Shown: piece by piece, positions 9,349-27,199 of the stretch
Layout of the letters: every line of letters begins with the position of its first letter
How positions within the stretch are numbered: the first letter of the stretch is position 1
Source of the DNA: Hoeflea sp.
GTDB lineage: Bacteria > Pseudomonadota > Alphaproteobacteria > Rhizobiales > Rhizobiaceae
Direction: 5' to 3'
Assembly: GCF_014359905.1 (NCBI RefSeq)
Contig: NZ_JACIYP010000028.1
Span: 1-51,871, forward strand
Length of the DNA stretch: 51,871 nt
Made by a program: the position numbers and the translations under genes
The notes under the pieces: generated by a model
What the model was told of the DNA's origin: nothing
The model's database searches: none
Seen by the model: only the letters and a program-made list of their open reading frames with translations

Positions 9349-9948
9349 TTACGTGCCGGCGGAGGTCTTGTTGACGAGACCCGCAGATGTTCTGTCGGGG
9401 CCGTAGTCGCTCTCGCCGTCGATACCCAGCAGGTCGCGCAGCCTGGCACGCGCCCGGTTGACCCGGCTCTTGATCGTGCCCACGGCAACGCCGGCGATCT
9501 CGGCTGCTTCCTCATAGGCAAAGCCCGATGCCCCGATCAGAATGATGGCCTCGCGCTGGTCGTCCGGCAATGTATCGAGGGCTGCCTTGAAGTCTTCCAT
9601 GTCAAGCTTGCCATATTGTTCCGGATGGGTGGCAAGATTGCCAGCGAACACGCCATCCGGATCAGGCAGTTCCCTGCCCTTTCTGCGCATCTGGCTGTAG
9701 AATTCATTGCGCAGGATGGTGAACAGCCAGGCACGGATGTTGGTTCCGGGCTGAAAGCTTTCCTGCTTGCTCCAGGCCTTCATCACCGTTTCCTGAACGA
9801 GGTCATCGGCCCGGTCGTGCCGGCGGGCAAGGGAAACGGCAAAGGCCCGCAAACCAGGCAGGGCTGCGAGCAATTCACGCTTGAACGAGAACGACGCCCC
9901 TGCATCGACGGCCACAGTCTCCGCGCCGCTCATCTCAGTTTGTGCCAT
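9349..9948 (-). CDS. ecfG: ECF sigma factor of the general stress response (EcfG/RpoE2 type)
   Basis: About 199 residues. It shows sigma region 2 (DDLVQETVMKAW, then FQPGTNIRAWLFTILRN) and region 4 (LPDDQREAIILIGASGFAYEE, then GVAVGTIKSRVNRAR), in the form typical of the alphaproteobacterial EcfG group. It recruits RNA polymerase to GGAAC...GTT promoters under stress and is held inactive by NepR. Its start overlaps the end of nepR, which fits translational coupling. The ATG at 9948 is preferred; a GTG at 9963 and an ATG at 9933 are alternatives. Several exact target promoters follow in the next 10 kb. Confidence 0.95.
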   Translation of the reverse strand: MAQTEMSGAETVAVDAGASFSFKRELLAALPGLRAFAVSLARRHDRADDLVQETVMKAWSKQESFQPGTNIRAWLFTILRNEFYSQMRRKGRELPDPDGVFAGNLATHPEQYGKLDMEDFKAALDTLPDDQREAIILIGASGFAYEEAAEIAGVAVGTIKSRVNRARARLRDLLGIDGESDYGPDRTSAGLVNKTSAGT

Positions 9949-10132
9949 TGGAGTTACCCGCACGCTCGGCTTGGTCGAGCTTTTCGAGCAGGTCGAGAAG
10001 CTGATCGGGGATCGGCTCCTGTTCGACAGACTTGTAGTAGTGCTTCAGTTGCGAAGCGATTGCGTCACTCGCATCATGATTGGAGGACCGCTTGCCCGAG
10101 ACGGGTGCGCCTTTCTGAGTTTTTGTCATCAT
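9935..10132 (-). CDS. nepR: NepR anti-sigma factor
   Basis: A small 65-residue protein with the NepR core: SDAIASQLKHYYKSVEQEPI followed by PDQLLDLLEKLDQAE, two helices that clamp EcfG. Under stress, phosphorylated PhyR takes NepR away from the sigma factor. The first of two tandem ATGs at 10132 is chosen because AAGGGGT precedes it. The longer frame up to 10180 would begin inside the predicted promoter. It is co-transcribed with ecfG, overlaps it by 14 bases, and is divergent from phyR, as in many Rhizobiales. Confidence 0.95.
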   Translation of the reverse strand: MMTKTQKGAPVSGKRSSNHDASDAIASQLKHYYKSVEQEPIPDQLLDLLEKLDQAERAGNSNGTN

Positions 10133-10170
10133 ACCCCTTATCAGCCCCGTTTGAATCAACATGGGGTCAT

Positions 10171-10195
10171 AATGCGCCATTCAAAAAAAAGTTCC
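10171..10195 (-). promoter_or_regulatory. EcfG-type promoter for nepR-ecfG (variant -10)
   Basis: Read on the minus strand, GGAAC (10195-10191) is followed after 16 bases by CATT (10174-10171). This fits the RpoE2 consensus GGAAC-N18-TT but differs by one base from GGAAC-N16-CGTT. It would start transcription about 30 bases before nepR and make the sigma factor autoregulated. Its -35 box forms an inverted repeat with that of the phyR promoter. Confidence 0.75.
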
Positions 10196-10203
10196 ATGCC
10201 ACT

Positions 10204-10228
10204 GGAACTTTTTTTAAAGCTGTGCGTT
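10204..10228 (+). promoter_or_regulatory. EcfG-type promoter for phyR (exact consensus)
   Basis: GGAAC at 10204-10208, 16 bases, then CGTT at 10225-10228: an exact match to the EcfG consensus, 44 bases before the phyR ATG. The 12-base arms AAAAAAAGTTCC (10184-10195) and GGAACTTTTTTT (10204-10215) make the two divergent -35 regions mirror images around an 8-base centre. Confidence 0.88.
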
Positions 10229-10272
10229 TTCTCGGTTGTCGCCACTTTCTGTGGACAATCAAGGGGTAAATA

Positions 10273-11097
10273 ATGACGACATTATCCATGCGCATTGCGC
10301 CGCATCTTCCCTATCTACGTCGCTTCTCGCGTGCTGTAACCGGGTCACAGACATCCGGAGATGCCTTCGTCGCGGCGACGCTTGAGGCGCTCATTGCGGA
10401 TCTGTCCGTGTTTCCCGCCTCGGGCGACGATCGCGTTGCCCTGTACAAGTTGTATTCCCAACTCTTTGACAGCCTGTCGGTTCCCGTGCCCGAGAATGTC
10501 ACGCCCTTCGGGTGGGAGAAACGAGCTGCCGCCAATCTGGAGGCCGTCACGCCCCAGGCCCGCAAGGCATTTCTTCTCATCGCTGTCGAAGGTTTCAATC
10601 CCGATCAATGCGCCGAGATCCTGAATGTGGATGAGGCCGGACTTTCCAAGCTTCTCGACACGGCATCCCGGGAAATTTCCGAACAGGTCGCAACCGACAT
10701 CATGATCATCGAGGACGAGCCGCTGATCGCCATGGACATTGAGGACATGGTGGAAACGCTCGGCCATCGCGTCACCGGCATTGCCCGGACCCGCATGGAA
10801 GCGCTGGAGCTCTACAAGCGGACCAGACCCAAGATGATCCTGGCCGACATCCAGCTGGCTGACGGAAGTTCAGGCATCGATGCCGTCAACGACATCCTGA
10901 AAGACGACACGCTTCCCGTCATTTTCATCACCGCGTTTCCGGAACGCCTGTTGACCGGCGAAAAGCCCGAACCGGCATTCCTGGTGACCAAGCCGTTCAA
11001 TCCGGACATGGTCAAGGCGTTGATCAGCCAGGCGCTGTTTTTCAACACAGCCAATGAACATGCCGATGAAACGCAGACAATGACTGGAACCAATTGA
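10273..11097 (+). CDS. phyR: PhyR, sigma-like response regulator (anti-anti-sigma)
   Basis: 274 residues in the PhyR layout. An N-terminal sigma-factor-like domain (about 1-135) mimics EcfG, and a C-terminal receiver domain (about 141-260) follows. The phosphoacceptor is Asp192 in MILADIQLADG, and the acidic pocket is IIEDE at about 145-149. The PhyR-specific FATGUY block is present as VIFITAFPERLLTG, followed by the conserved Lys in LVTKPF. Phosphorylated PhyR binds NepR and frees EcfG. It is transcribed away from nepR-ecfG from an exact EcfG promoter, giving positive feedback. Its 3' end hides another EcfG promoter. Confidence 0.97.
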   Translation: MTTLSMRIAPHLPYLRRFSRAVTGSQTSGDAFVAATLEALIADLSVFPASGDDRVALYKLYSQLFDSLSVPVPENVTPFGWEKRAAANLEAVTPQARKAFLLIAVEGFNPDQCAEILNVDEAGLSKLLDTASREISEQVATDIMIIEDEPLIAMDIEDMVETLGHRVTGIARTRMEALELYKRTRPKMILADIQLADGSSGIDAVNDILKDDTLPVIFITAFPERLLTGEKPEPAFLVTKPFNPDMVKALISQALFFNTANEHADETQTMTGTN

Positions 11098-11110
11098 GAC
11101 ATCGAGCGTT
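11086..11110 (+). promoter_or_regulatory. EcfG-type promoter inside the end of phyR
   Basis: GGAAC at 11086-11090, 16 bases, CGTT at 11107-11110. The -35 box lies within the last codons of phyR and the -10 just after its stop. It is placed to drive the DUF1328 gene, 33 bases downstream. Confidence 0.85.
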
Positions 11111-11142
11111 GGCTTGTCATCGAATGACAAAGGAGATTTTCG

Positions 11143-11307
11143 ATGCTTTACTACGCTCTTGTCTTTCTCGTCGTCGCCATCATTGCAGGTGTTCTCGGCT
11201 TCGGCGGCATTGCCGGCGCTTCGGCTGGCATCGCCCAGATCCTGTTCTTCCTGTTTCTGGCGCTTCTTGTGATTTCCGTGATCATGAATTTCGTCCGGAA
11301 AACTTGA
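11143..11307 (+). CDS. DUF1328 (YtjA-type) small membrane protein
   Basis: A 54-residue protein made almost entirely of two transmembrane helices: [20 protein letters not shown], then a [12 protein letters not shown] turn, then a second hydrophobic helix ending MNFVRKT. This is the pattern of the DUF1328/UPF0391 family, whose function is unknown and which is often stress induced. AAAGGAG stands 8 bases before the ATG. It is the first gene behind the EcfG promoter at 11086. The PAS-HWE kinase follows 124 bases later and could share the transcript. Confidence 0.9.
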
Positions 11308-11431
11308 CCTTCCGGCATGCTGACCTTCACGTCAAGGAAGCGAGCCAAGCAATGGGAGCGGGCGCTGGATTGATTTTCAGTGCCCGCATTCCGTCCCGAT
11401 GGACCCTGGCCACCATGATGAAGAGTGCTTG

Positions 11432-12439
11432 ATGCCCCTGAATTCACTCAAGGAGTCCCATCGACTGAATTTTGTGCTGGCCGGCCTGCGCAACGCCGGC
11501 GTTTCGATGGTCTATCAGGACTTGAACCTCACCATCGGCTTCTGCGCGAATCTCCCGGAGATGTGGCCGAAAGAGGCTGACGTTATCGGCAAGTCGGACG
11601 CTGCCTTGTTCGGCGAGGTGCAGGCGGCAAGGATCGGCGCTGCCAAGCGCGAAGTCATCAACACCGGCGAGCCGTCCAAGCTGGAAGTTTTGCGCGAGAT
11701 CGATCAGAAGCGGCATTGGTACTTGCTGCATATTGATCCCGATGCGGATGAAAGCGGAGCGATCATCGGCGTCGTCACGACCATACTCGATATCGATGAT
11801 CTGAAGTATCGGGAGACGGTGCTCCGGACACTGCTGCGCGAACTGAACCACCGGTCGAAAAACCTGCTGGCGATCATCCAGTCCATCGCCTCGCAAACCG
11901 CGCGCTCTACCCATGATCTCGATGAGTTCCTGTTCGCATTCCGCAACCGCATCCAGTCCATGGCCCAGTCACAGGACCTGGTGACCGCGTCCGATTGGCG
12001 CGGCGCGGAATTGTTCGAGTTGACAAGATCCCAGCTCAAGCCCCTGGCGGGCGAGGCGCCGCCCGGTTTCTCGATGGTCGGCGAAGACGCCTACCTGCTC
12101 CCCAATGCCGCGCTGCATCTGGGCCTGGCGCTGCACGAGCTGACGATCAATTCCCTGGCCACCGGCGCTCTCGGGCCCGCGGGCGGCGACATCGTGCTCT
12201 CGGCGGAGCGGCGCCTGAACGGCAACAACAAGACCGAGCTGGTCGTGACCTGGACCGAGACCTTTCTGGTGCCGCCGACTGTGATCGGGACGAACCCAGC
12301 ACCCAGCTCCGGATTTTCAGGCACCGTTCTCAAGCGCATCGTTCCGCAGGCGCTGTCGGCGCGCGTGCGCCACGAGGTGAGCAACACCCAGATTGTCTAC
12401 GAGCTGACGATCCCCGACACCCAGTACGAACTCAACTGA
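11432..12439 (+). CDS. PAS-HWE family sensor histidine kinase
   Basis: 335 residues, soluble. The N-terminal 120 residues form a PAS-like fold (SMVYQDLNLTIGFCANLP; later HWYLLHIDPDADESGAIIGV). The HWE kinase core follows, with phospho-acceptor His140 in RELNHRSKNLLAIIQSIA. The family-defining residues are His235 in HELTIN, with Asn240 of the N box, and Trp274-Glu276 in WTE. The C-terminal G box is weak (SGFSG). HWE kinases phosphorylate PhyR in several alphaproteobacteria, so this close neighbour is a candidate PhyK or stress sensor. With no transmembrane segment, its signal must be cytoplasmic. The ATG at 11432 is used because upstream codons lack PAS similarity. Confidence 0.88.
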   Translation: MPLNSLKESHRLNFVLAGLRNAGVSMVYQDLNLTIGFCANLPEMWPKEADVIGKSDAALFGEVQAARIGAAKREVINTGEPSKLEVLREIDQKRHWYLLHIDPDADESGAIIGVVTTILDIDDLKYRETVLRTLLRELNHRSKNLLAIIQSIASQTARSTHDLDEFLFAFRNRIQSMAQSQDLVTASDWRGAELFELTRSQLKPLAGEAPPGFSMVGEDAYLLPNAALHLGLALHELTINSLATGALGPAGGDIVLSAERRLNGNNKTELVVTWTETFLVPPTVIGTNPAPSSGFSGTVLKRIVPQALSARVRHEVSNTQIVYELTIPDTQYELN

Positions 12440-12542
12440 GATACCTGTGACGCTGACGTCATCGCGGCGCATCCGAATGGGTGCGCAGCGATGGCGTGCC
12501 GGCGCATCCTTCAAACCGGCTTTCCGCAAAATCATCCGCAAC

Positions 12543-12567
12543 GGAACTTCCGGCATGAACGGGCGTT
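12543..12567 (+). promoter_or_regulatory. EcfG-type promoter
   Basis: GGAAC at 12543-12547, 16 bases, CGTT at 12564-12567. The match is exact, 22 bases before the ATG of the next small gene. Confidence 0.87.
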
Positions 12568-12589
12568 AACGCTTCAAAGGAGAAGCGTC

Positions 12590-12925
12590 ATGGAACACAT
12601 CGCAGCCTTCATGATTCTGATCGCTTGCAGCGACGATTACACCACTTGCACAGAGCAGCCCGCGCCGGCGGTGGCCTATGAAACCGTACGGCAATGCGAG
12701 GCAGACTTGTCTCCCTCCATCCGCATGATGGCGGCGGAGCGGAAACATGCCTTGGGCAAGTGCCTCGAGATCGACCCTGCCCTGTTTTACCAGGACGCCG
12801 AGATCGTCTGGGATGTCAGTGCGGAGGGAGAGCTCGAGGTCGTGCTTGAGCTGATCAATCCCGAGATGACGGTTCCGGCCTATGCCCAATCGGCGACCCC
12901 GGATGATAACCGTCGGCTGAACTGA
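12590..12925 (+). CDS. hypothetical GSR-controlled protein with four cysteines
   Basis: 111 residues, no family assigned. The start MEHIAAFMILIACSDDYTTC is hydrophobic and could be a short signal or anchor, but it lacks a positively charged lead. Four cysteines (13, 20, 36 and 58) are spaced as if for two disulfides, suggesting an extracytoplasmic protein. An AAAGGAG site precedes the ATG, and an exact EcfG promoter lies just upstream. This makes it a probable stress-regulon member of unknown role. The DUF2383 gene follows 102 bases on and may be co-transcribed. Confidence 0.75.
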   Translation: MEHIAAFMILIACSDDYTTCTEQPAPAVAYETVRQCEADLSPSIRMMAAERKHALGKCLEIDPALFYQDAEIVWDVSAEGELEVVLELINPEMTVPAYAQSATPDDNRRLN

Positions 12926-13027
12926 TCCTGTCCCGGCCCTGAGCGTCGGGAAAGGCAACCAGCGGTGCAGATCCGCCTGGTTCACCCACGATGCAAAACA
13001 CCCACAAAACCACATAAGAGGCCTATC

Positions 13028-13519
13028 ATGACACAGGAAACCATGGACGACGCGACAACCGAAGTGCTGGATGCCATTGGCGATGTTCACATTGCCCTGA
13101 TCGATGCGGTTCACGGCTATGACGTGATGCTCGAAAAGGCAGAGCCGGAAATCAGGACCGTGCTGGAAACGACCCGGGAGACCTCCGACAGTCAGGCCCG
13201 GGAGCTTGCCGGGTTCCTGGTCGCCCAAGGCAGGCACCCGTCCGATGACGGCTCCTTCATGTCCGCGGTTCACGAAGGCGTGGTCCGCACCCGGGCCTTC
13301 TTCACCGACATCGATGGTGATGTCCTTCCGGCCGTTGTCGATGGCGAGCGGCGGATCGTGTCCTCCTATGATGATGCGCTGGAAATGCTGGCCAAGAACA
13401 TGGAATCCCTGCCGCGGGCGACCTTCGACGCTGCACACGCCGTGCTGATGAAGCATCGCAGCGAGATAGAGGATATCGTCAGACGTCTTGGCGAACGTCA
13501 TCACGCGCTTGAGGATTGA
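13028..13519 (+). CDS. DUF2383 ferritin-like four-helix protein
   Basis: 163 residues, all helical in appearance. The run MDDATTEVLDAIGDVHIALI, then GYDVMLEKAEPEIRTVLE and VHEGVVRTRAFF, fits the DUF2383/PA2169 family of ferritin-like helical bundles. No metal function is established for this family. Glu and His residues that could bind metal are present, but the set is not clearly complete. It lies between two EcfG-driven genes and has no GGAAC box of its own, so it probably reads through from the promoter at 12543. Confidence 0.75.
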   Translation: MTQETMDDATTEVLDAIGDVHIALIDAVHGYDVMLEKAEPEIRTVLETTRETSDSQARELAGFLVAQGRHPSDDGSFMSAVHEGVVRTRAFFTDIDGDVLPAVVDGERRIVSSYDDALEMLAKNMESLPRATFDAAHAVLMKHRSEIEDIVRRLGERHHALED

Positions 13520-13537
13520 TCCGTTCGAAGTTCGTGA

Positions 13538-13570
13538 TGCCGCAGCGGCGCCGTGCCTGGCGCTGCGGCA
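13538..13570 (+). terminator. hairpin after the DUF2383 gene
   Basis: A 10-bp perfect inverted repeat (TGCCGCAGCG / CGCTGCGGCA) with a 13-base loop lies 18 bases after the stop. It has no T-run, so its role as a terminator is uncertain. Confidence 0.4.
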
Positions 13571-13621
13571 CGGTGCCTGAGAGCCGGACATCGATCAGGA
13601 TTAATTTCGATCGGATTTTTC

Positions 13622-13646
13622 GGAACCAAAAATTGGGTACGGCGTT
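13622..13646 (+). promoter_or_regulatory. EcfG-type promoter for csbD
   Basis: GGAAC at 13622-13626, 16 bases, CGTT at 13643-13646. The match is exact, 66 bases before the csbD start. Confidence 0.87.
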
Positions 13647-13712
13647 GATCAAGCAAGCCGGTTGGCGAAAACAAACAACGGCTTCCGGATAACGTGCAAA
13701 AGGAGAATTGCT

Positions 13713-13910
13713 ATGAACTGGGATATGATCGAAGGAAAATGGAAAGAATACCGCGGCAAGGCTCAGGCGCAGTGGGGCAAACTCACCGATGACGATCTTG
13801 ACGTGGTCGAAGGCCGCCGCGACGAGCTGGCCGGCAAGATCCAGGCCCGCTACGGCAAGACCCGTGACGAAGCCGAAAAGGAAATCGACACCTGGCTTGA
13901 AAAGCACTAA
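13713..13910 (+). CDS. CsbD-family stress protein
   Basis: 65 residues: MNWDMIEGKWKEYRGKAQAQ, WGKLTDDDLDVVEGRRDELA and a closing ARYGKTRDEAEKEI block. This is a textbook CsbD-like protein: small, hydrophilic and helical. Family members are among the most strongly induced general-stress genes in many bacteria; the molecular role is unknown. AAAAGGAG precedes the ATG. It is driven by an exact EcfG promoter and followed by a strong terminator, so it is probably a single-gene unit with a short abundant mRNA. Confidence 0.95.
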   Translation: MNWDMIEGKWKEYRGKAQAQWGKLTDDDLDVVEGRRDELAGKIQARYGKTRDEAEKEIDTWLEKH

Positions 13911-13926
13911 TTACACATCAATGAGA

Positions 13927-13957
13927 ACCCGGCAGACCATCTGCCGGGTCTCTTTTT
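13927..13957 (+). terminator. rho-independent terminator after csbD
   Basis: A 10-bp perfect stem (ACCCGGCAGA / TCTGCCGGGT, 3-base loop) is followed by CTCTTTTTG. It lies 16 bases after the csbD stop and ends only 16 bases before the next gene's ATG. Confidence 0.9.
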
Positions 13958-13973
13958 GTGAAAGCCAGATCCG

Positions 13974-14762
13974 ATGCCTCCAGAGAACCAGAGTGCGATC
14001 CCTGAAAATGCCAGCGCGCTGGTAAAGCGGTTGGGGCGGTCGATGCTTCTCACCGCCGAGGAGGTCGACTATCTCGAAACCATGCAGGTCAACCAGGCGT
14101 CGATCGACAAGGGAGATGAATTTCTCCACGATGGCGAACCGATGCGCCTGACATTCCTGATCCGCAGCGGCTGGGTCATGCGTTACCGGATAACCGCCGG
14201 CGGTCGCAGACTGATTATCGGCATTTCCCTGCCGGGCGATTTCATCGGTCTGCATGTGAACTTCAAGAACTCCTCCATCTATTCGGCGGCTGCGCTGACC
14301 GACTCATCCCTGGCGCTGATCGAGCCGGTGCGCATTCTCGAGATCCACCGCCGTTTTCCGGTGCTTGCATCAGGCCTCGACTGGATGACCGTGCGCCATT
14401 CCAACATTTTGTCCGAACACAAGGTTTCGCTTGGCGCACGCAGCGCCGCACAACGGATCCTGCACTTCCTTCTGGAACTGTGGACCCGGCTCGAGCAGAT
14501 CGGGCAGGCGAACACGAAGGGGTTCGAACTTCAGCTGACCCAGGAGCAGATCGGCGATTGCATGGGTCTGTCGACAGTCCACGTGAGCCGGTCCATCAGC
14601 CGCCTGTGCAAGGAGAACCTTGTCCGTATCGACAAGGGCATGGTCACATTCCCTCAGGTGAGTCGGTCGGTGAGCTTCGCCGATTTCGACAATCGGTTCC
14701 TGATGGAGTTTTCGACCAAGCCTGGCATGCCCGAGCTGATCAACAAAATTTCTTCGAACTGA
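13974..14762 (+). CDS. Crp/Fnr-family transcriptional regulator
   Basis: 262 residues. A cyclic-nucleotide-binding-like beta barrel (about 35-130; FLHDGEPMRLTFLIRSGWVM, LPGDFIGLHV) is followed by a dimer helix. The winged helix-turn-helix (about 190-240) includes LTQEQIGDCMGLSTVHVSRS. The N-terminal cysteine cluster of true FNR is absent, so it does not sense oxygen through an iron-sulfur cluster. The ligand is unknown. The ribosome-binding site is weak. Its ATG is so close to the csbD terminator that its transcript must start within or before that terminator. The CHASE-HWE kinase lies 101 bases downstream on the same strand. Confidence 0.9.
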   Translation: MPPENQSAIPENASALVKRLGRSMLLTAEEVDYLETMQVNQASIDKGDEFLHDGEPMRLTFLIRSGWVMRYRITAGGRRLIIGISLPGDFIGLHVNFKNSSIYSAAALTDSSLALIEPVRILEIHRRFPVLASGLDWMTVRHSNILSEHKVSLGARSAAQRILHFLLELWTRLEQIGQANTKGFELQLTQEQIGDCMGLSTVHVSRSISRLCKENLVRIDKGMVTFPQVSRSVSFADFDNRFLMEFSTKPGMPELINKISSN

Positions 14763-14863
14763 TCCTGACTTAACCTGTGTAATAGACGGCTGTTCGCTCA
14801 TCTCTTATCCGTGAAGCTGATTTTCCTTGCTGCGTTTCACAACCAGCGCAAGAAGCGGTTTGC

Positions 14864-16624
14864 ATGTTCACTCAGTCCTGTCTTGATGAAACATACTTGC
14901 AAACGCGCCGCGAACGCCTTAGCGGATTGAGCTGCCCCCCATTGAAGAAGGTTGTAAGATTGTTATACCGCGTTCAGCCAGTGCTGATCTTTGCAGTGGT
15001 CACGTTTGTCGGTTTGCTTACAGCGGCAGCGTCCTGGTACACCATTGACCACGCCAACAAGATGAGCTTCTCGGCCATTGCCGAAAATGCTGTTCAGCGA
15101 TTGAGCGACCGGATCGACAGCCATATTCTGCTGGTCAAGTCGACGGAAGCCCTCTTCGAGGCGATCGGCGAGGTGCCAACCGCGGAAGAGTTCAAGACCT
15201 TCGTCGGACATTTGCAGAAAAGCGAACAATTCAGCGGCGTCCAGGGCATCGGCTTTGCCCGCTACGTCCCGGCGGGATCGCAGTCGGATGTCGCGATCGC
15301 ACAGGAGCTTGAGCGAAACTACGGGATTGCCCGCACTCCCTGGCCCGAAACCACCGAGGACATCCGTGTCCCGATGGTTCTGATAGAGCCGCAAACCAGT
15401 CGCAGCCTGGGGGCTCTGGGGTTTGACATGTATTCGAACCCGGTCCGCCGCGCGGCGATCCTGGCAGCGTTGACCGAACAGCGGCTGCGCGCCTCGGGCT
15501 CGGTGGAGCTTGTTCGCGAGAATTCGAACGACAAACAAGCCGGGTTCGTGATGTACACACCGTTCCTCGACGCGGAGTCCGGCCGTCCCATCGGGTTTGT
15601 CTTCGCGCCGTTCCGGATCGGCGATCTGTTTGAATCTGCGCTGAACCGGTTGCCGGTCCTGCCCGTACACATCTCTGCCTGGGATGGGGAACCGGCTGAA
15701 TCCAGCCTGATCTATCAAACGGCAGGCGATCCGGAAACCCGTTTTGGCATCGGACAGAAGGTCAGGACCTCGCTGACGGTGGCGGGTCGCATATGGACGC
15801 TGGAGATCCAGCCCTCCTCCATCTACACGCCGCCGGTCGACCAGACCCGCTCCTTCATGCTGATGGTTGCCGCGGTCTTGCTGGCTGCGGCGCTGGCGGC
15901 GTCGTCTCATTCCCAGCAACGGACGATTGAAGTCGGGGAGATCCTGCGCGAGGAGACTGAACGCGCGCTCACCGAGCGCGAGCTGCTGCTTCAGGAGATG
16001 AAGCACCGCATCAAGAACATGATCGCCCGGGTTCTGGCGATTTCGCGGCAGACCGCGCGAGCCTCCCAGAGCCTGCCGGACTTTTCCCAGTCCTTTTCCG
16101 CGCGGTTGCAGGCCATGGCGGCATCGCAGGACCTTTTGGCCCGCACCGCCTGGCAGGGCGCCGATCTCGAAACCCTGCTGGTTCAGGAGCTTAAACAGCT
16201 TTTCGGCGATGATCCGATCGAGGACAAGTTCTCCGGCCCGAAGGTCGAGCTCAATGAAGCTGCGACACAGGCGTTCGGGCTCGCTTTCCATGAACTGGCG
16301 ACCAATGCGCTGAAATATGGATCCGCCCGGTTCCCCGGTGGCGTGCTCGATGTCACATGGACCATTACATGGCAGCGCGGCACCGAGGCGGACCTGATCC
16401 TGACCTGGTCCGAGCGCAGCGAGGAGCCTCTGGACGCGCCCATGACGGAAGCGGCGCCCGGCAAGGGCGGCTTCGGAACCCGGCTTCTTGATGCCACCAT
16501 CCGTGGTGAAATGGGCGGGTCAATCACCTCGGCGAAGAATGAATACGGCATCGATGTCACCATCAGCGTGCCCTATGAGCGGGTGACATCGCGTCCCAAC
16601 GCGGCGAGACCCGCCAAGAAGTGA
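14864..16624 (+). CDS. CHASE-domain HWE-family membrane histidine kinase
   Basis: 586 residues. Transmembrane helix 1 (about 38-58) and helix 2 (about 330-348) flank a periplasmic CHASE sensor domain that includes FSGVQGIGFARYVP, LGFDMYSNPVRR and GFVMYTPFLD. A short coiled linker (EEILREET type) leads to the HWE kinase core. That core has acceptor His381 in QEMKHRIKNMIARV, His476 and Asn481 in HELATNALKYG, Trp515 and Glu517 in WSE, and the G box GKGGFGTRLL. It would sense an extracellular signal and phosphorylate a response regulator. PhyR, 4 kb away in the same island, is a plausible target. No exact EcfG promoter precedes it. Confidence 0.92.
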   Translation: MFTQSCLDETYLQTRRERLSGLSCPPLKKVVRLLYRVQPVLIFAVVTFVGLLTAAASWYTIDHANKMSFSAIAENAVQRLSDRIDSHILLVKSTEALFEAIGEVPTAEEFKTFVGHLQKSEQFSGVQGIGFARYVPAGSQSDVAIAQELERNYGIARTPWPETTEDIRVPMVLIEPQTSRSLGALGFDMYSNPVRRAAILAALTEQRLRASGSVELVRENSNDKQAGFVMYTPFLDAESGRPIGFVFAPFRIGDLFESALNRLPVLPVHISAWDGEPAESSLIYQTAGDPETRFGIGQKVRTSLTVAGRIWTLEIQPSSIYTPPVDQTRSFMLMVAAVLLAAALAASSHSQQRTIEVGEILREETERALTERELLLQEMKHRIKNMIARVLAISRQTARASQSLPDFSQSFSARLQAMAASQDLLARTAWQGADLETLLVQELKQLFGDDPIEDKFSGPKVELNEAATQAFGLAFHELATNALKYGSARFPGGVLDVTWTITWQRGTEADLILTWSERSEEPLDAPMTEAAPGKGGFGTRLLDATIRGEMGGSITSAKNEYGIDVTISVPYERVTSRPNAARPAKK

Positions 16625-16685
16625 GCCGCGCGCAGACTTGCGCTTTCGGCCGTCGCACCAGTTTGCAGGATCGGCAGTACCTGGC

Positions 16686-16710
16686 GGAACCATACGCGCG
16701 TTCCGGCATT
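16686..16710 (+). promoter_or_regulatory. candidate EcfG-type promoter (variant -10)
   Basis: GGAAC at 16686-16690, 16 bases, then CATT at 16707-16710. This is the same one-base variant as the nepR-ecfG promoter and fits GGAAC-N18-TT. It lies 25 bases before the chosen start of the permease gene. Confidence 0.6.
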
Positions 16711-16735
16711 GTCCCTAATTGATAGGGGTAACCGG

Positions 16736-17857
16736 ATGAGACACAAGTATCGAATGGAACCGCCAGTGGTTCGAATCGCTGCCAAGTCCGGTCTGGACGC
16801 CAGCCTGCAAACGATTTCGCGGGTTTCAATCATCGTGATTGGCCTGGTTGTGGCGTTTGCGGGTCTTGATCAGGCCCAGCCGCTGCTTGCCCCCATTTCA
16901 CTTGCCATCGTCACCGGATTGATGGCCTCGCCCGTCGCTGCAGCGCTCGAACGCTTCATGCCGCCGGCGCTGTCGGCGGCCATCGTCGTCCTGCTGTTCC
17001 TGGGATTGATCGCTTCCGCAACCACCCTGTTTTCCATGCCGCTGTCGATCTGGATGGACCGGTTGCCGGAAATCTGGCGGGAACTGCAGCGCCACCTGCT
17101 GGACTGGCGGACGGTGTTGGAGACGCTTGGCGGCGTTCAGGAACAGATCCGCTCGATATCCGGCGGAGAGACCGCAATGAAGGTCGAGATCGAAGAGAGC
17201 TCAACGGTCGAGGATATCGCCACCCTTGCCCCGGCTCTGGCGGCGCAGATCATTCTGTTCCTGGCGAGCCTTTATTTCTTCCTGGCCACTCGCCATCAGA
17301 TGCGCATCAGCGTCCTGTCGCTGTGTTTCAGCCGCCGCGCGCGGCTTCGCACCGCCCGCATGTTTCGGGACGCCGAGTGGTTCGTGTCACGCTACCTGCT
17401 GTCCATCTCCGTCATCAATGCAGGTCTCGGGATCGCCACCACTGCCGCAATGTGGCTTCTTGACGTGCCGCAACCCTATCTCTGGGGCATGTTGGCTTTC
17501 ATCCTCAATTATGTCGTCTATATCGGACCGGCGGTGATGGCCGGGACCCTGCTCGGTGTGGGGCTTGCCACCTGGGATTCGCCCCCGGCGATCTTCCTGC
17601 CCATGGCAGCCTATCTCTCCCTCAATCTGATTGAAGCCCAGTTCGTGACCCCGCAGGTCATCGGCCGCTCGGTTACGCTCAGCCCGTTCCTGGTGTTCCT
17701 GTCGCTGGCGTTCTGGATCTGGCTGTGGGGACCGATCGGCGGCTTGCTGGCGGTTCCGTTCCTGCTCATCGGCCATGCCGTGATGCGCAATTCGATTCTG
17801 CTGAACCAGTCGAGACCGAATTTGGCCCGTCGCGACGCGACTTCAGCGGCACGCTGA
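16736..17857 (+). CDS. AI-2E family (PerM-type) transporter
   Basis: 373 residues with about seven or eight hydrophobic segments. It has the family layout: two or three N-terminal helices, a less hydrophobic middle (about 100-160), then a C-terminal group. That group includes LGIATTAAMWLLDVPQPYLW, NYVVYIGPAVMAG, AYLSLNLIEAQFVTPQVIG and FLSLAFWIWLWGPIGGLLAV, the family hallmark. Members export or exchange small solutes; the substrate here is unknown. The ATG at 16736 follows AGGGGT. A TTG at 16709 is rejected because it would lie inside the predicted promoter. The promoter suggests membership of the stress regulon. Confidence 0.88.
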   Translation: MRHKYRMEPPVVRIAAKSGLDASLQTISRVSIIVIGLVVAFAGLDQAQPLLAPISLAIVTGLMASPVAAALERFMPPALSAAIVVLLFLGLIASATTLFSMPLSIWMDRLPEIWRELQRHLLDWRTVLETLGGVQEQIRSISGGETAMKVEIEESSTVEDIATLAPALAAQIILFLASLYFFLATRHQMRISVLSLCFSRRARLRTARMFRDAEWFVSRYLLSISVINAGLGIATTAAMWLLDVPQPYLWGMLAFILNYVVYIGPAVMAGTLLGVGLATWDSPPAIFLPMAAYLSLNLIEAQFVTPQVIGRSVTLSPFLVFLSLAFWIWLWGPIGGLLAVPFLLIGHAVMRNSILLNQSRPNLARRDATSAAR

Positions 17858-17878
17858 CCAAAAAAAACATCTCCCGGG

Positions 17879-17903
17879 GGAACCAAGAGCAGGGGGATGC
17901 GTT
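17879..17903 (+). promoter_or_regulatory. EcfG-type promoter for the PRC-barrel gene
   Basis: GGAAC at 17879-17883, 16 bases, CGTT at 17900-17903. The match is exact, 89 bases before the start codon. Confidence 0.85.
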
Positions 17904-17992
17904 TCTGCTCTGTAACCGCCGCCGAGCCAGCCCCGCGCTCTCACACACGGACCAGCCCGGCGCACACCTTTCGATGCAAAGAGGAATTTACC

Positions 17993-18955
17993 ATGTTTAA
18001 GATGCTTTTGGCCAGTACGGCCCTGACCGCTCTTGTGACCACGTCGGCTTTCGCCCAGACCACTCCGGCGACGACGGACACGAATGAAGCGACCACCACC
18101 ACCGAAACCTCCGCAACCGCCACGGCTGATGCCACCGGCGCAATGCACGGCGCAACGCTTGCGAGCGATCTGATCGGCGCCTCGGTTTACGAATCGTCGG
18201 CTGAAGATGCAGCCTCGATTGGCGAGATCAACGACATCGTCGTCAGCCCGGAAGGCGAAGTGTCCTCCGTCATTATCGGCGTTGGCGGCTTCCTGGGAAT
18301 CGGCGAGAAGGACGTCGAGGTCGAGTACAGCGCCGTTGAATGGGCCGACCGCGATGGTCAGCGCTGGATTGTTGCGAACATGTCCCGCGAGCAGCTCGAA
18401 GCCGCGCCGGCCTTTGACCGCACAAATATCTACACCGAAGCCCAGTCTGAACCGGAAGGCATGGACGCCAACCAGAACATGGCGACCGGCACTGACACCA
18501 ACATGGCGACCGAAACCGAGCAGACAACCGAGCAGGCCACTGCTGAACGGGTCGAAAGCACTGACAGCGCCGTTGCGCCCGTCGAACAGCAGACCCAGGT
18601 CATTGATCGCATGACGATGACTGAAGTGGCTTCCGGCGACATGACTGCCGATGACCTGACCGGCCGCACCGTCTATGGCGCCAATGACGAAAACATCGGC
18701 GAAGTCGGCGAAGTGCTGATCAGCGGCGACAACAAGATCGACGGTTTCGTCCTTGATGTTGGCGGTTTCCTGGGCATGGGTGAAAAGGAAGTGGCGATCT
18801 CGCCGGAAAACCTTGATATCCGCGCCGATGCCGATGGCAATATCACCGTCTTCACGCCTTTCACCAAGGAAGAGCTGGAAGCGCAGCCGGAATACACCGA
18901 GGAAACTTGGAAATCCGACCGCGACTCCGTGATCATGATGGCTCCGGCAGGCTAA
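17993..18955 (+). CDS. exported protein with two PRC-barrel domains
   Basis: 320 residues. A clear signal peptide (MFKMLLASTALTALVTTSAF, cleavage near AFAQ) is followed by a Thr/Ala-rich linker. Two PRC-barrel domains are visible. The first (about 45-140) contains ASDLIGASVYE and GVGGFLGIGEKDVEV. The second (about 215-310) contains DDLTGRTVYG and DVGGFLGMGEKEVAI. A Thr/Glu-rich spacer of about 70 residues joins them. The repeated GGFLGxGEK signature shows an internal duplication. It is probably periplasmic or envelope-associated. GAGGA precedes the ATG, and an exact EcfG promoter makes it a stress-regulon gene. Confidence 0.9.
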   Translation: MFKMLLASTALTALVTTSAFAQTTPATTDTNEATTTTETSATATADATGAMHGATLASDLIGASVYESSAEDAASIGEINDIVVSPEGEVSSVIIGVGGFLGIGEKDVEVEYSAVEWADRDGQRWIVANMSREQLEAAPAFDRTNIYTEAQSEPEGMDANQNMATGTDTNMATETEQTTEQATAERVESTDSAVAPVEQQTQVIDRMTMTEVASGDMTADDLTGRTVYGANDENIGEVGEVLISGDNKIDGFVLDVGGFLGMGEKEVAISPENLDIRADADGNITVFTPFTKEELEAQPEYTEETWKSDRDSVIMMAPAG

Positions 18956-18977
18956 GCCAGTCGAACGCCTGAAACAC

Positions 18978-19015
18978 AAATGGCCGTCGGAGCAATCCGG
19001 CGGCCATTTTGTTTT
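18978..19015 (+). terminator. terminator after the PRC-barrel gene
   Basis: A 14-base arm (AAATGGCCGTCGGA, 18978-18991) pairs with TCCGGCGGCCATTT (18996-19009) with one mismatch, around a GCAA loop, followed by TGTTTTG. Confidence 0.85.
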
Positions 19016-19035
19016 GAATTAACGCAACCTCGCCC

Positions 19036-19060
19036 GGAACCTATCCGGATGTCATGCGTT
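19036..19060 (+). promoter_or_regulatory. EcfG-type promoter for the DUF883 operon
   Basis: GGAAC at 19036-19040, 16 bases, CGTT at 19057-19060. The match is exact, 32 bases before the start codon. Confidence 0.88.
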
Positions 19061-19092
19061 GGTGAGGTGAAATCAATCAAGGAGATGTTACC

Positions 19093-19425
19093 ATGGCTTC
19101 AACCAAGAGCACACGGTCCGACGGAACAGACAACCCGGTGATGGACGATATTGCCGAACGCACCGCACGTATCCGAGCTGAATTGGCGGCCCTTGGCGAA
19201 GCGCTTGCTGGCGCCGGCGCACTCAAGGCCGGCGTGGCCCGCGAGGCCGCCGAAAACCGTGTCGATGAGGTTCTCAGGAGCGGCGAGCGACTCGTGGCAG
19301 ACATGTCCGGCCAGTTCTCGAGCGCCGAAAAGAAAGTTGTCGCAAATGTGCGCGAACATCCGCTGCAGTCGCTCGGCATCGCCGTTGCCGCCGGCTTCCT
19401 GGCCGCCTTGCTGATGCGCAGGTAG
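19093..19425 (+). CDS. DUF883 (ElaB/YqjD-like) membrane-anchored protein
   Basis: 110 residues. The N-terminal 80 residues are an amphipathic, Ala/Glu-rich helical region (RTARIRAELAALGEALAGAG, KKVVANVREHP). The tail is a single membrane helix (SLGIAVAAGFLAALLMRR) ending in two arginines. This is the DUF883 layout, in which E. coli relatives bind ribosomes at the membrane in stationary phase; whether this one does is not known. AAGGAGAT precedes the ATG. An exact EcfG promoter lies directly upstream, and the next gene starts 7 bases after its stop. Confidence 0.88.
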   Translation: MASTKSTRSDGTDNPVMDDIAERTARIRAELAALGEALAGAGALKAGVAREAAENRVDEVLRSGERLVADMSGQFSSAEKKVVANVREHPLQSLGIAVAAGFLAALLMRR

Positions 19426-19432
19426 GACCGGT

Positions 19433-19846
19433 ATGTTTTCGGCCTTTCCCCTGACCAGCCTTGTCTCGGCCTTTGCCGGCGCCAAGGCGCGCCAGATCAA
19501 GCGGGACGCAGTGTTGTTCGCCATCGTTGCCTTGATGGTGGTGTTGGCAAGCATCTCGCTGATGGGCGCCTTTGCAGCCTTCGTCGCGCAAACCCATGGG
19601 ATCATCATCGGCCTGCTGTCCGCAGCGGCGCTGGCGATCTTCCTGGGGGTGATCGCAATCATTGTCCGGGCCTTGTTGCGCAGGAGAGCCCTGCGGCGGC
19701 AGCGATTGGCAACGACCAGCGCCGCATCGGTGCTGGCCATGTCAACGGCCACGAACCTGATCGCCCAGAACAAAACCATGGCCATCGCAGCCGGTGTCGT
19801 CATCGGCGTGATTGCGGGCTCCCTCGTCCGCTCCGGCCGCAGTTAG
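19433..19846 (+). CDS. phage-holin-superfamily (YqjE-like) membrane protein
   Basis: 137 residues with two strong membrane helices near the N-terminal half (VLFAIVALMVVLASISLMGA; IIIGLLSAAALAIFLGVIAI). A basic linker (RALLRRRALRRQR) and a third hydrophobic stretch (MAIAAGVVIGVIAGSLV) follow. This is the usual partner of DUF883 proteins, called 'phage holin family' by homology only. There is no evidence of phage origin here. It is translationally close to the DUF883 gene and shares its EcfG promoter. Confidence 0.75.
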   Translation: MFSAFPLTSLVSAFAGAKARQIKRDAVLFAIVALMVVLASISLMGAFAAFVAQTHGIIIGLLSAAALAIFLGVIAIIVRALLRRRALRRQRLATTSAASVLAMSTATNLIAQNKTMAIAAGVVIGVIAGSLVRSGRS

Positions 19847-19976
19847 AGCCGTCGCCATGTCAAGGTCGCGCACGCGCTCTGGCATTCGGATAACGGTGCT
19901 TCCTGCTGTTTCACAGCCGGCAAGGCTGCGCGCAGGAGGCGCCAAATACGGCCAAGTTTAGAAAGGAGCATGTCAA

Positions 19977-20213
19977 ATGCCCGATTCGAAAGATCCCACA
20001 AAGGTGCGCCAGGGCCGGCTTGGCAAACAGGTTCTCGTCATCCTGGTAATCAGCATGGCCCTTGCATTCGTGGCCGGATGGGTGCTCTGGGGCGTCTTCG
20101 CCAATGATGAGCCCACCATCCCACAGGCTTTCTCCGTGCCTTCGGAAGTGCCGGCGATGTCTGAGCCTGTGCAACAGCCGGTGCTCTCGGCCTCTTCCGC
20201 GAGCTCCAACTGA
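19977..20213 (+). CDS. small single-pass membrane protein, unknown
   Basis: 78 residues: a basic start (MPDSKDPTKVRQGRLGKQ), one membrane helix (VLVILVISMALAFVAGWVLW) and a Pro/Ser-rich tail predicted outside. AAAGGAG stands 6 bases before the ATG. No family recognised. It lies 130 bases after the DUF883 operon and 43 before dps in the same direction, so it may belong to the same stress transcript. Confidence 0.7.
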   Translation: MPDSKDPTKVRQGRLGKQVLVILVISMALAFVAGWVLWGVFANDEPTIPQAFSVPSEVPAMSEPVQQPVLSASSASSN

Positions 20214-20256
20214 TCCAATCCATTAAGTCCACAGACGAAACAAGAGGCAGATACTC

Positions 20257-20772
20257 ATGACCAAGTCAGCAATCGCCAGTCTTTCTCCCGAAACCTCCAA
20301 CGACACCCTGCATACGGGTCTGAAGGCAGATTATCGCAAGGCCATGTCCAGCGACCTCTCGGACATTCTGGCCGCGACCTACCGCCTCACGATCAAGAGC
20401 CACGTGTACCACTGGAATGTGGTTGGCCCGATCTTCAAGCCGATCCACGACCTCACCGAAGAGCACTACAACGCGCTGTTTGCGGCAACCGACATCATCG
20501 CCGAACGGATCCGCGCGCTTGGTCACCTTGCTCCCGTGAGCTTCGGAATGACCAAGTCCTTCGCGCCCACCAAGTCCGATGTCGATCATGCCTCGGCGCA
20601 TGATATGGTGTTCGATCTGATTTCAGAGCATGAGCAGGCAGTGCGCGACATGCGCACCGCAGCGGCCAAGGCCGGCGAGAATGACGACATGGTCACCGAA
20701 GACATGCTGACCGAGCGTCTTGGCTTCCATGAAAAGGCGCTTTGGATGCTCCGCGCCATTGTCGCGGAATAA
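20257..20772 (+). CDS. dps: Dps family DNA-binding ferritin-like protein
   Basis: 171 residues. The ferroxidase region LTIKSHVYHWNVVGPIFKPI and the EEHYNALFAATDIIAERIRA block define Dps, a dodecameric shell that stores iron and protects DNA from peroxide. The N-terminal tail carries few lysines. The gene ends the stress island, before a strong hairpin. No GGAAC box lies in the 43 bases upstream, so it is either read through from the EcfG promoter at 19036 or uses another promoter. Membership of the stress set is inferred from context. Confidence 0.95.
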   Translation: MTKSAIASLSPETSNDTLHTGLKADYRKAMSSDLSDILAATYRLTIKSHVYHWNVVGPIFKPIHDLTEEHYNALFAATDIIAERIRALGHLAPVSFGMTKSFAPTKSDVDHASAHDMVFDLISEHEQAVRDMRTAAAKAGENDDMVTEDMLTERLGFHEKALWMLRAIVAE

Positions 20773-25639: not shown

Positions 25640-27199
25640 TTACTGCGGCTTGGCCACGTCCTGAAGCATCAGGAAGAACGAGGGCTGCAGCTTGAAGCCC
25701 TCGACGGAGGCCTTGGTCACCGCGTTCTGCTTCCAGTTGGCGACGAACACCCAGGGCGCGTCCTCCTGCACGATCGCCTGCATCTCGCGATAGAGTTCCG
25801 CGCGCTCGTCCTGATCGGTGGAGCGACGGGCCGCCTCGAGCAGCTCGTCCACCTTCGGGTTGGAATAATAGCCCGAATTGAAGCCGCCCTTGTCGGGCCA
25901 GGCTTCCGTGCGCAGCGCCAGGAACGGCAGCGTGTCGGGGTCGTTGGTCATCCAGGCCATCTCAGCCATGTCGGCCTTGCCCTCGAGCCCGGGATTGACC
26001 TTTCCCAGGAACGTGTTCCACTCGTAGGTCTCGATCTTCACGTCCATGCCGATGGCTTCGAGGTCGGCCTGGATGGCCGTGCCCATGGCGATGGGATCGA
26101 GCATGCCGGAGCCGCCTTCGGTGACGTAGAACGTGACTTCCTCACCATCATAACCAGCATCCTCGAGAAGCTGCTCGGCCCGTGCCGGATCGTAGGGATA
26201 GGGCTGGAGGCTTTCGTCATAGGCCCAGGCAAAGGCCGGCGGCGTCGGACCGGCGGCGACTTCGGCGGTGCCCTGCAGGATATTGTCGACCAGCGCCGTC
26301 TTGTTGATAGCGTAATTGGCCGCCTGGCGGATTTCCTTCTTGGCGAACGGCCCTTCCTTGGTGTTGAGGATCAGGAACCACAGATGCGGACCGGCCTGCT
26401 CATGGACCGTGAAGGCATCGTCGCTCCGGAACTGCTGCAGGCTGTCCGGCGGCACCTCGACCATGATGTCGAGCCCGCCCGACAGCATCTCCGCAATGCG
26501 GGTGTTGGCGTCGGTGATAGGGCGGTAGATCACCGCCTCGAGCTCCGGCGCGCCGTCCCAGTAGTCTTCGTTGCGGGTCACCACGACCTTGGCGTTGGCC
26601 TCCCATTCGGCGAATGTGTAGGCGCCGGTGCCCGACGGATTGCGGCCGAAGTCGGCGCCATTGTCCTCGACGCCCTTGGGCGAGACGATCAGGCCCGTCG
26701 GATAGGCGAGGTTCGACAGGAAGGGCGCATAGGGCTCCTTCAGCTTGAACTCGACGGTGAGATCGTCAATGGCGGTGACGGTATCGATGGACGAGAAGAA
26801 GAACGCCAGCGGGAACGGCCCGGTGTCGTGGAAGGGATGCTCTTCATCGAGCATCCGGTCGAAATTGAATTTCACCGCCTCGGCGTTGAGCGGCGCGCCG
26901 TCGTGAAAGCGCACGCCCTCGCGCAGCTTGAACGTGTAGACGGTGCCATCGTCGGAGATCGTCCAGCTTTCCGCAAGCGCCGGCTCGACTTCCAGCGTGC
27001 CATCCTTGTAGCGCACCAGCCCGTCATAGATGTTCATCAGGATGCGGAAGTCGTTGACCGCGGTGACCGCATGGGGATCCAGCGATTTGGGCTCCGCGAT
27101 CTGCCCGACAACGAGAACATTGGGTGGCGTCTGGGCAAGGGAAGGCGAGGTGAATGCGAGCGACAACACCGCCGCCGCTGCAGCCAGAAATCTCTTCAT
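25640..27199 (-). CDS. ABC transporter substrate-binding protein, peptide/opine family 5
   Basis: 519 residues. A signal peptide (MKRFLAAAAAVLSLAFTSPS, cleavage near SLAQ) precedes a family 5 binding protein with EPKSLDPHAVT, YDGLVRYKDGTLEVEPALAE, FKLREGVRFHDGAPLNAEAV and AANYAINKTALVDNI. It captures the substrate in the periplasm for the transporter encoded downstream. The substrate is unknown. The family includes peptide, opine and glutathione binders. The ATG at 27199 is chosen because the signal peptide starts there. It is the first gene of the operon and divergent from the M20 hydrolase gene. Confidence 0.93.
   Translation of the reverse strand: MKRFLAAAAAVLSLAFTSPSLAQTPPNVLVVGQIAEPKSLDPHAVTAVNDFRILMNIYDGLVRYKDGTLEVEPALAESWTISDDGTVYTFKLREGVRFHDGAPLNAEAVKFNFDRMLDEEHPFHDTGPFPLAFFFSSIDTVTAIDDLTVEFKLKEPYAPFLSNLAYPTGLIVSPKGVEDNGADFGRNPSGTGAYTFAEWEANAKVVVTRNEDYWDGAPELEAVIYRPITDANTRIAEMLSGGLDIMVEVPPDSLQQFRSDDAFTVHEQAGPHLWFLILNTKEGPFAKKEIRQAANYAINKTALVDNILQGTAEVAAGPTPPAFAWAYDESLQPYPYDPARAEQLLEDAGYDGEEVTFYVTEGGSGMLDPIAMGTAIQADLEAIGMDVKIETYEWNTFLGKVNPGLEGKADMAEMAWMTNDPDTLPFLALRTEAWPDKGGFNSGYYSNPKVDELLEAARRSTDQDERAELYREMQAIVQEDAPWVFVANWKQNAVTKASVEGFKLQPSFFLMLQDVAKPQ

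Follow-up and report, generated by a model that had tools for sequence, protein, structure and literature searches.

A conserved EcfG/NepR/PhyR general stress response locus in Hoeflea with clustered predicted EcfG promoters and a possible composite core promoter

Introduction

A contig of a Hoeflea sp. genome (NZ_JACIYP010000028.1 of assembly GCF_014359905.1; 51,871 nucleotides, analyzed at full length and termed here the window) carries between positions 9349 and 20772 the genes for the extracytoplasmic function (ECF) sigma factor EcfG, the anti-sigma factor NepR and the sigma-mimic response regulator PhyR, together with six exact copies of the EcfG promoter motif GGAAC-N16-CGTT. Are these six sites promoters, and does their clustering around the sigma switch set this locus apart from those of its relatives? 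We find that the locus is real and conserved, yet ordinary in kind. Its less ordinary part is the arrangement of the nepR and phyR promoters, for which we tentatively propose a composite structure.

Results

The switch genes

The window holds a Hoeflea-like Rhizobiaceae general stress response locus. Pfam domain searches of the window identified ecfG, nepR and phyR along with genes for DUF1328, PAS-HWE kinase, DUF2383 and CsbD proteins, and gave further matches to a Crp-type regulator, a CHASE-HWE kinase, an AI-2E permease, a double PRC-barrel protein, a DUF883 protein and a ferritin-like protein. The ecfG gene (9349..9963, minus strand) encodes an ECF sigma factor with matches to Pfam Sigma70_r2 and Sigma70_r4_2. 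The protein scored 307.9 bits, against a cut-off of 219, with the NCBIfam subfamily PRK12547, a sigma-factor model that is not named EcfG. No other protein of the genome comes close to it, the next best having 32% identity, and it is 79-85% identical to EcfG of the Hoeflea loci L031-L037 and 71% identical to that of Hoeflea marina (L038).

The nepR gene (9935..10132, minus strand), which overlaps the ecfG open reading frame (ORF), gives the single NepR match in the genome (Pfam NepR, 1.4e-14; 53.9 bits against a cut-off of 25.7). Its ORF reaches 10180; a start there is unlikely because the promoter at 10195-10171 falls inside that extension, and an ATG at 10132 or 10129, after AAGGGG, is the likelier start. 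The phyR gene (10273..11097, plus strand) matches Pfam PhyR_sigma2, PhyR_sigma-like and Response_reg. Its product is 91% identical to PhyR of Hoeflea sp. BAL378, and Hoeflea supplies the top eight of the best 80 named PhyR loci, drawn from 567 confirmed PhyR matches; these 80 are mostly Rhizobiaceae by title, and several are shortened by contig ends.

An EcfG-type sigma factor, an adjoining NepR, a PhyR with sigma-like and receiver regions, promoters on both arms and HRxxN kinases nearby are thus found together. We are highly confident that this is a canonical alphaproteobacterial EcfG/NepR/PhyR locus, predicted to be autoregulated, with two HRxxN kinases and six putative EcfG-driven output units. 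The state of the 6.86-Mb host genome, which consists of 552 contigs (the window being contig C201) and has a contamination of 8.3%, is a point against this assignment. An Rfam scan of the window returned no family at threshold; the small RNA ReC64 itself was not searched for.

EcfG promoters and their conservation

A motif scan of the window confirmed the six exact GGAAC-N16-CGTT sites listed in an earlier sequence-only reading, all on the plus strand, at 10204, 11086, 12543, 13622, 17879 and 19036. Dinucleotide shuffling gave a chance expectation of 0.42 matches for the whole 51.9-kb window, and at least seven matches arose in none of 100 shuffles. All six sites have a G before CGTT and a C or T after GGAAC. 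They are intergenic or at a gene edge, as that reading had said: the 10204 site lies between nepR and phyR, the 11086 site overlaps the final 12 bp of phyR and is the only one to overlap a gene, and the remaining four are intergenic. The -10 boxes end 22-89 bases ahead of the likely start codons, three of which were corrected by reading the ORFs. Five of the sites do point into small stress-type genes, as claimed; the sixth, at 10204, points into phyR itself. Two near-consensus sites that had been proposed for nepR-ecfG (10195-10171, minus strand) and for the AI-2E permease (16686-16710, plus strand) are present, both ending in CATT, and are conserved in Hoeflea-type copies.

A seventh exact match in the window, at 25921-25945, lies outside the stretch, ends in TCGTT rather than GCGTT and is probably due to chance.

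The density comparison proposed in the same reading gave a divided answer. Of the 127 exact N16 or N17 matches in the whole genome, six fall inside 8.9 kb here, where about 0.16 would be expected from the genome density. The motif itself is not enriched genome-wide, the reversed control pattern having 139 matches, and most N16/N17 matches outside the island are therefore likely to be chance. A stricter form of the motif, requiring the flanking bases that the six sites share, gave 39 matches against 27 for its control, with six of the 39 in the island.

Conservation was assessed in the window and eight Hoeflea loci (L033 being shortened by a contig end) by searching from -220 to +60 of each gene. 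Seven named Hoeflea loci retain most of the block, with nearly all sites in register and with diverged spacers. Among the Hoeflea-type copies, the DUF1328 promoter (11086) is exact in nine of nine and the csbD promoter in eight of eight, as is that of the PRC-barrel gene, three times with N17. The phyR promoter is exact in eight of nine copies and has CATT in one, and the nepR promoter has CATT in all nine. The promoter of a gene for a 111-amino acid protein is exact in 7/8 copies; that of the DUF883 gene is likewise exact in 7/8, with CATT in H. marina, and that of the AI-2E permease gene is exact in three of eight and has CATT in five.

The window genes that have no site (both kinase genes, crp, the 137- and 78-amino acid ORFs, dps and the DUF2383 gene) have no exact site in any relative where they were located, dps and the 78-amino acid ORF being found in three relatives each and the DUF2383 gene in two. 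Upstream of the CHASE-HWE kinase gene, an exact site occurred in 0/8 copies, and one single-mismatch match was seen in L037. The exception was an exact N17 match nine bases into the fumC query in L032.

An internal control came from spacing. The 80 named loci contain 288 copies of GGAAC-N-CGTT with N16 and 62 with N17, against 7-24 for each of the other spacings between 12 and 21, and this excess over the eight other spacings indicates that the EcfG sites are real promoters. The genome-wide count of 127 against 139 is what speaks for the alternative that a short motif has come together six times by chance in a genome rich in G+C. The shuffles, the spacing control and the conservation of the sites in up to nine loci, in place and between diverged spacers, rule this out, and we assign it a negligible probability. 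Eight promoters are therefore supported by sequence and by conservation in place; their dependence on EcfG is predicted.

Two side observations concern the block in other Hoeflea genomes. In H. marina (L038), the greater part of the output block is found on the opposite side of ecfG, with its order and most of the EcfG sites kept; this rearrangement preserved the linkage of the output block to the switch. In L034, L035 and L036, an extra exact EcfG site lies at about +4140 to +4180 from the phyR start, between the gene for the 111-amino acid protein and csbD. No DUF2383 match was found at this place in the three loci, and the two ORFs of at least 50 amino acids that start between +4100 and +4300 in L036 are both on the minus strand.

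The core promoter

The nepR-ecfG promoter (10171..10195, minus strand; GGAAC-N16-CATT with a T8 tract right after the -35 box) and the phyR promoter (10204..10228, plus strand; GGAAC-N16-CGTT with a T7 tract right after the -35 box) stand back to back as A8-GTTCC-N8-GGAAC-T7, with an 8-bp gap between the -35 boxes. At this gap, a T-tract in one spacer is, on the opposite strand, an A-tract 14-21 bp upstream of the partner's -35 box. The A8 tract at 10183..10190 (plus strand), which is the T-tract of the nepR spacer on the other strand and begins 14 bp upstream of the phyR GGAAC, is our proposed upstream promoter (UP) element of phyR.

T-tracts of this kind are largely confined to the core promoter. 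In the named loci, where a phyR site was found in 71 of 81, a T-run of at least six follows the -35 box in 62/71 phyR arms and 54/71 nepR-side arms, against 5/275 other exact sites. Wider sampling drew on a phyR sample in which 54 of 289 genomes matched with PhyR (59 of the 60 places outside the window genome were used) and on a further phyR sample in which 126 of 199 genomes matched, giving 29 loci and 45 further places, mostly one per genus. In the resulting class-wide and order-wide set, 160 of 214 loci had a recognizable phyR site and represented 79 of 121 clusters at 85% PhyR identity; the other 54 loci had no recognizable site within 300 bp, or too short an upstream sequence. A partner GTTCC lies within 3-12 bp in 36 of the 79 clusters, with a modal gap of 8 (17 clusters; a gap of 9 in 12). 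A T-run of at least five behind the phyR -35 box was found in 21 of the 36 paired and none of the 43 unpaired clusters (Fisher 7e-10, the clusters not being fully independent); a smaller earlier count of the same T-run had given 11/16 against 0/19.

The position of the nepR-side tract, a T-run of at least four in 91 of 109 distinct pairs, follows the partner. At gaps of 9, 8, 7, 6 and 5 its mean center offset is 2.8, 2.8, 4.7, 6.2 and 7.7, respectively, and the distance of its center to the phyR -35 box stays steady at 16.8-18.8 bp over gaps of 5-10. Where nepR-ecfG has been relocated, its promoter has no tract: 15 Ciceribacter-type loci have nepR-ecfG at a distance of about 4 kb from phyR, behind an unpaired promoter with a T-run of at least five in 0/15, and the pair left at phyR has the T-run on the phyR side in 14/15 and on the other side in 15/15. 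Because of this partner dependence, the steady distance to the phyR -35 box and the absence after relocation, the A/T tract of the nepR spacer is best explained as a putative phyR UP element.

An A/T patch at a comparable place is seen at some other promoters. The 275 other EcfG sites of the named loci have an A+T peak of 0.72 at -15 and 0.66 at -16. In unpaired phyR promoters the peak is at -18 to -13 (0.64 against 0.42), with a p value that is optimistic because the window of the test was chosen from earlier counts, partly of the same 43 sequences. At the six output promoters of the Hoeflea sp. locus the same patch did not reach significance (0.64 against 0.43, p 0.16).

Alternatively, EcfG might read each tract as a spacer element of the promoter in which it lies, in which case the tracts would not act as UP elements for the partner. 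At all gaps, the phyR-side tract remains close to its own -35 box, with a center at 2.7-4.3 over gaps of 5-9, and spacer effects have precedents: PMC7083833 cites, in a passage on ECF factors of Bacillus subtilis (Gaballa 2018), an effect of T-stretches and also states that spacer sequence alters EcfG promoter output, and a passage of PMC5333181 discusses spacer elements of sigma-E promoters. The Hoeflea tract resembles the B. subtilis promoters in having a T-run in the spacer and differs from them in going with a back-to-back partner and, on the nepR side, in taking its place from the partner's -35 box. The nepR-side tract leaves its own -35 box as the gap narrows (center at 2.8 for gap 8, 7.7 for gap 5) and holds its distance to that of phyR. 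No T-run of at least five occurs in the 43 unpaired phyR clusters or the 15 relocated nepR-ecfG promoters, and runs of at least six are found in just 5 of the 275 other EcfG sites. We consider own-spacer reading unlikely, although it deserves to be taken seriously.

The near-symmetric A8-GTTCC-N8-GGAAC-T7 arrangement, which is kept across Hoeflea-type loci, could instead be an A/T inverted repeat to which a nucleoid or regulator protein binds, repressing the two promoters or coupling them. However, the promoter boxes are themselves part of the symmetry, the gap sequence varies among clusters, and phyR promoters that lack the repeat have A/T patches at that same offset. A protein site of this kind seems to us improbable.

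Several observations weigh against the UP element as the preferred explanation of the tracts. Fifteen of the 36 paired clusters have no phyR-side T-run of at least five, and in two gap-7 pairs (L032 and L104) the tract is not shifted. The phyR-side tract moves far less with the gap than the nepR-side tract, although its rank correlation with the gap is equally strong (-0.59 for the phyR side, -0.54 for the nepR side), and a reciprocal role of the phyR-side tract for nepR is less certain. Few lineages, chiefly Ensifer/Sinorhizobium and Pararhizobium, supply the short gaps, all 15 relocated cases belong to a single lineage, and sequence kinship inflates all p values for the tracts. At 56 class-level exact EcfG sites, some of them probably chance matches, there is no A/T patch (0.405 against 0.375, p 0.26).

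The relocated cases had suggested that the pair left at phyR includes a vestigial nepR arm without a gene. This was dropped when the divergent ORF was found to match Pfam NepR in L039 and L053. These ORFs (L039, 9657-9851; L053, 9654-9845; minus strand) encode NepR proteins of 63-64 amino acids with scores of 42.4 and 40.4 bits, respectively. Since this NepR is divergent from phyR and nepR-ecfG lies about 4 kb away, both genomes seem to carry a second NepR. A weak CATT -10 box on the nepR side was likewise rejected as a general rule: it applies to Hoeflea-type loci (9/9) and many Rhizobium loci. On the nepR side, Ensifer-type loci carry CGTT with an N17 spacer, and certain loci of other families combine a nepR-side CGTT with GGTT at phyR.

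Clustering of EcfG sites in relatives

Of the 80 named PhyR loci, 17 have six exact sites or more inside a 9-kb stretch, as do 2 of 26 class-wide NepR regions. The NepR sample had matches in 26 of 134 genomes, 26 of the 29 places outside the window genome were used, several regions are shortened by contig ends, and some are shorter than 20 kb. The clustering noticed in the sequence-only reading is therefore real here, and its being special is not supported, since 17 named loci reach it. The accompanying contrast with relatives whose regulons are scattered is only partly right, the neighborhood of the switch being often rich in EcfG sites. The constant 16-base spacing, which had been thought noteworthy, is simply the usual one, as the 288 N16 and 62 N17 occurrences show, and N16 is also the spacing of the published Rhizobium etli motif in a passage of PMC3892343. 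According to the same source, 19 of 56 units lowered in an R. etli ecfG1 mutant carry the motif. On this analogy the six output units of the island are probably a minority of EcfG output, and the statement that much of the output is clustered here lacks support.

Kinases and output genes

The promoters, output genes and kinase genes described here all lie on the plus strand. The promoter at 11086..11110, overlapping the end of phyR, precedes a gene for a small DUF1328 protein (11143..11307; Pfam PF07043, 2.3e-15) and, behind it, a gene for a PAS-HWE histidine kinase (11399..12439; Pfam HWE_HK, 1.5e-24, and PAS_4). This candidate PhyR kinase has its HRxxN motif (HRSKN) at residue 151 and shares 41% identity with the kinase next to phyR in Rhizobium locus L098, where an N17 site at the phyR end directly precedes the kinase homologue. 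The window hairpin scan found no terminator-like hairpin between the DUF1328 and kinase genes. This and the L098 arrangement suggest that the 11086 promoter probably drives the kinase gene too. The scan found 11 hairpins overall against 10.1 in shuffles, so that single hairpins are weak evidence.

The promoter at 12543..12567 serves the gene at 12590..12925. Its cysteine-containing product of 111 amino acids could be placed in no family, neither Pfam nor NCBIfam giving a match at E 0.01; homologues of 35-36% identity lie behind an exact site in L039, L040 and L042, which makes it an unnamed candidate stress protein. The csbD stress gene (13713..13910; Pfam CsbD, 9.1e-20) has its promoter at 13622..13646 and is followed by a terminator-like hairpin (13927-13949). 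The CHASE-HWE histidine kinase gene (14864..16624; Pfam CHASE and HWE_HK), with HRxxN (HRIKN) at residue 381, is without an EcfG site of its own. Behind it, the near-consensus GGAAC-N16-CATT promoter at 16686..16710 precedes the gene for an AI-2E family permease (16736..17857; Pfam PF01594, 1.3e-40), whose start was corrected from the ORF start at 16709. The promoter at 17879..17903 serves the gene for the double PRC-barrel protein (17993..18955; Pfam PRC in two stretches), which has a signal-peptide-like start by eye; a terminator-like hairpin of 14 pairs follows at 18978-19009. The last promoter (19036..19060) is that of the DUF883 family gene (19093..19425; Pfam DUF883_C, 7.6e-8), with the ORF of 137 amino acids (19433-19846) close behind.

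HRxxN is described as a feature of general stress response kinases in a passage of the review PMC8103513. The island had been called self-contained, and kinases, switch and targets do adjoin one another; the link from kinase to PhyR is one that we infer.

Discussion

The locus resembles the ecfG1/phyR/tcrY locus of R. etli, as described in passages of PMC3892343 and PMC8103513, in gene set, divergent order, EcfG promoters on both arms, adjacent kinase and N16 spacing. Unlike the R. etli core locus, that of Hoeflea adds the CHASE-HWE kinase and six predicted output units, co-directional over about 9 kb. The Ciceribacter-type loci L039, L040 and L042, with six exact sites in about 5.5 kb, are like Hoeflea in having CsbD, DUF883, DUF1328 and a relative of the 111-amino acid protein near the switch. 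They are unlike it in their gene order and in the distance of about 4 kb between nepR-ecfG and phyR; the second NepR divergent from phyR, another difference from Hoeflea, is shown in L039 and in L053, whose layout is similar.

The locus would work as follows. Stress-activated HWE kinases, two of which are encoded here, would presumably phosphorylate PhyR, which would then bind NepR and so free EcfG; this partner switch is established for the EcfG, NepR and PhyR families. RNA polymerase with EcfG is predicted to transcribe nepR-ecfG, phyR and six neighboring output units through GGAAC-N16-C(G/A)TT, the output units being those of DUF1328 (probably with the PAS-HWE kinase), the 111-amino acid protein, CsbD, the AI-2E permease, the PRC-barrel protein and DUF883. 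Judging from general polymerase footprints, occupancy of two promoters with -35 boxes 8 bp apart would be mutually exclusive, and polymerase would accordingly occupy only one of the two core promoters at once, with the A/T tract in the nepR spacer serving as a UP element for phyR. The two promoters might in this way form a composite, across many Rhizobiaceae and in some Alphaproteobacteria beyond them, in which the T-tract of the nepR spacer doubles as the phyR UP element: firing of the nepR promoter would occlude phyR, yet its DNA would strengthen phyR, setting the NepR:PhyR ratio in cis. We offer this as a possibility that falls somewhat short of being probable.

Clustering of EcfG sites and N16 spacing are already common, and it is the tract and UP element proposal that goes beyond the sequence-only reading. 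Passages of PMC3892343, PMC6599016, PMC7083833, PMC4814048, PMC8103513 and PMC5333181 give it as the rule that nepR-ecfG and phyR are transcribed divergently and in dependence on EcfG. Those passages made no mention of a tract or UP element at the nepR-phyR promoter, the subscription literature being mostly outside their scope. A full-text literature search on the general stress response in Hoeflea yielded two papers, neither of which concerns this system as judged by titles and the beginnings of abstracts.

For Hoeflea, the island points to six output units that may be under EcfG control and to two candidate kinases of PhyR. Negative feedback in the general stress response is described as little known in a passage of PMC4814048. 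If the composite core promoter is true, a short DNA element would bear on the balance of NepR, EcfG and PhyR, all three of which would be under EcfG.

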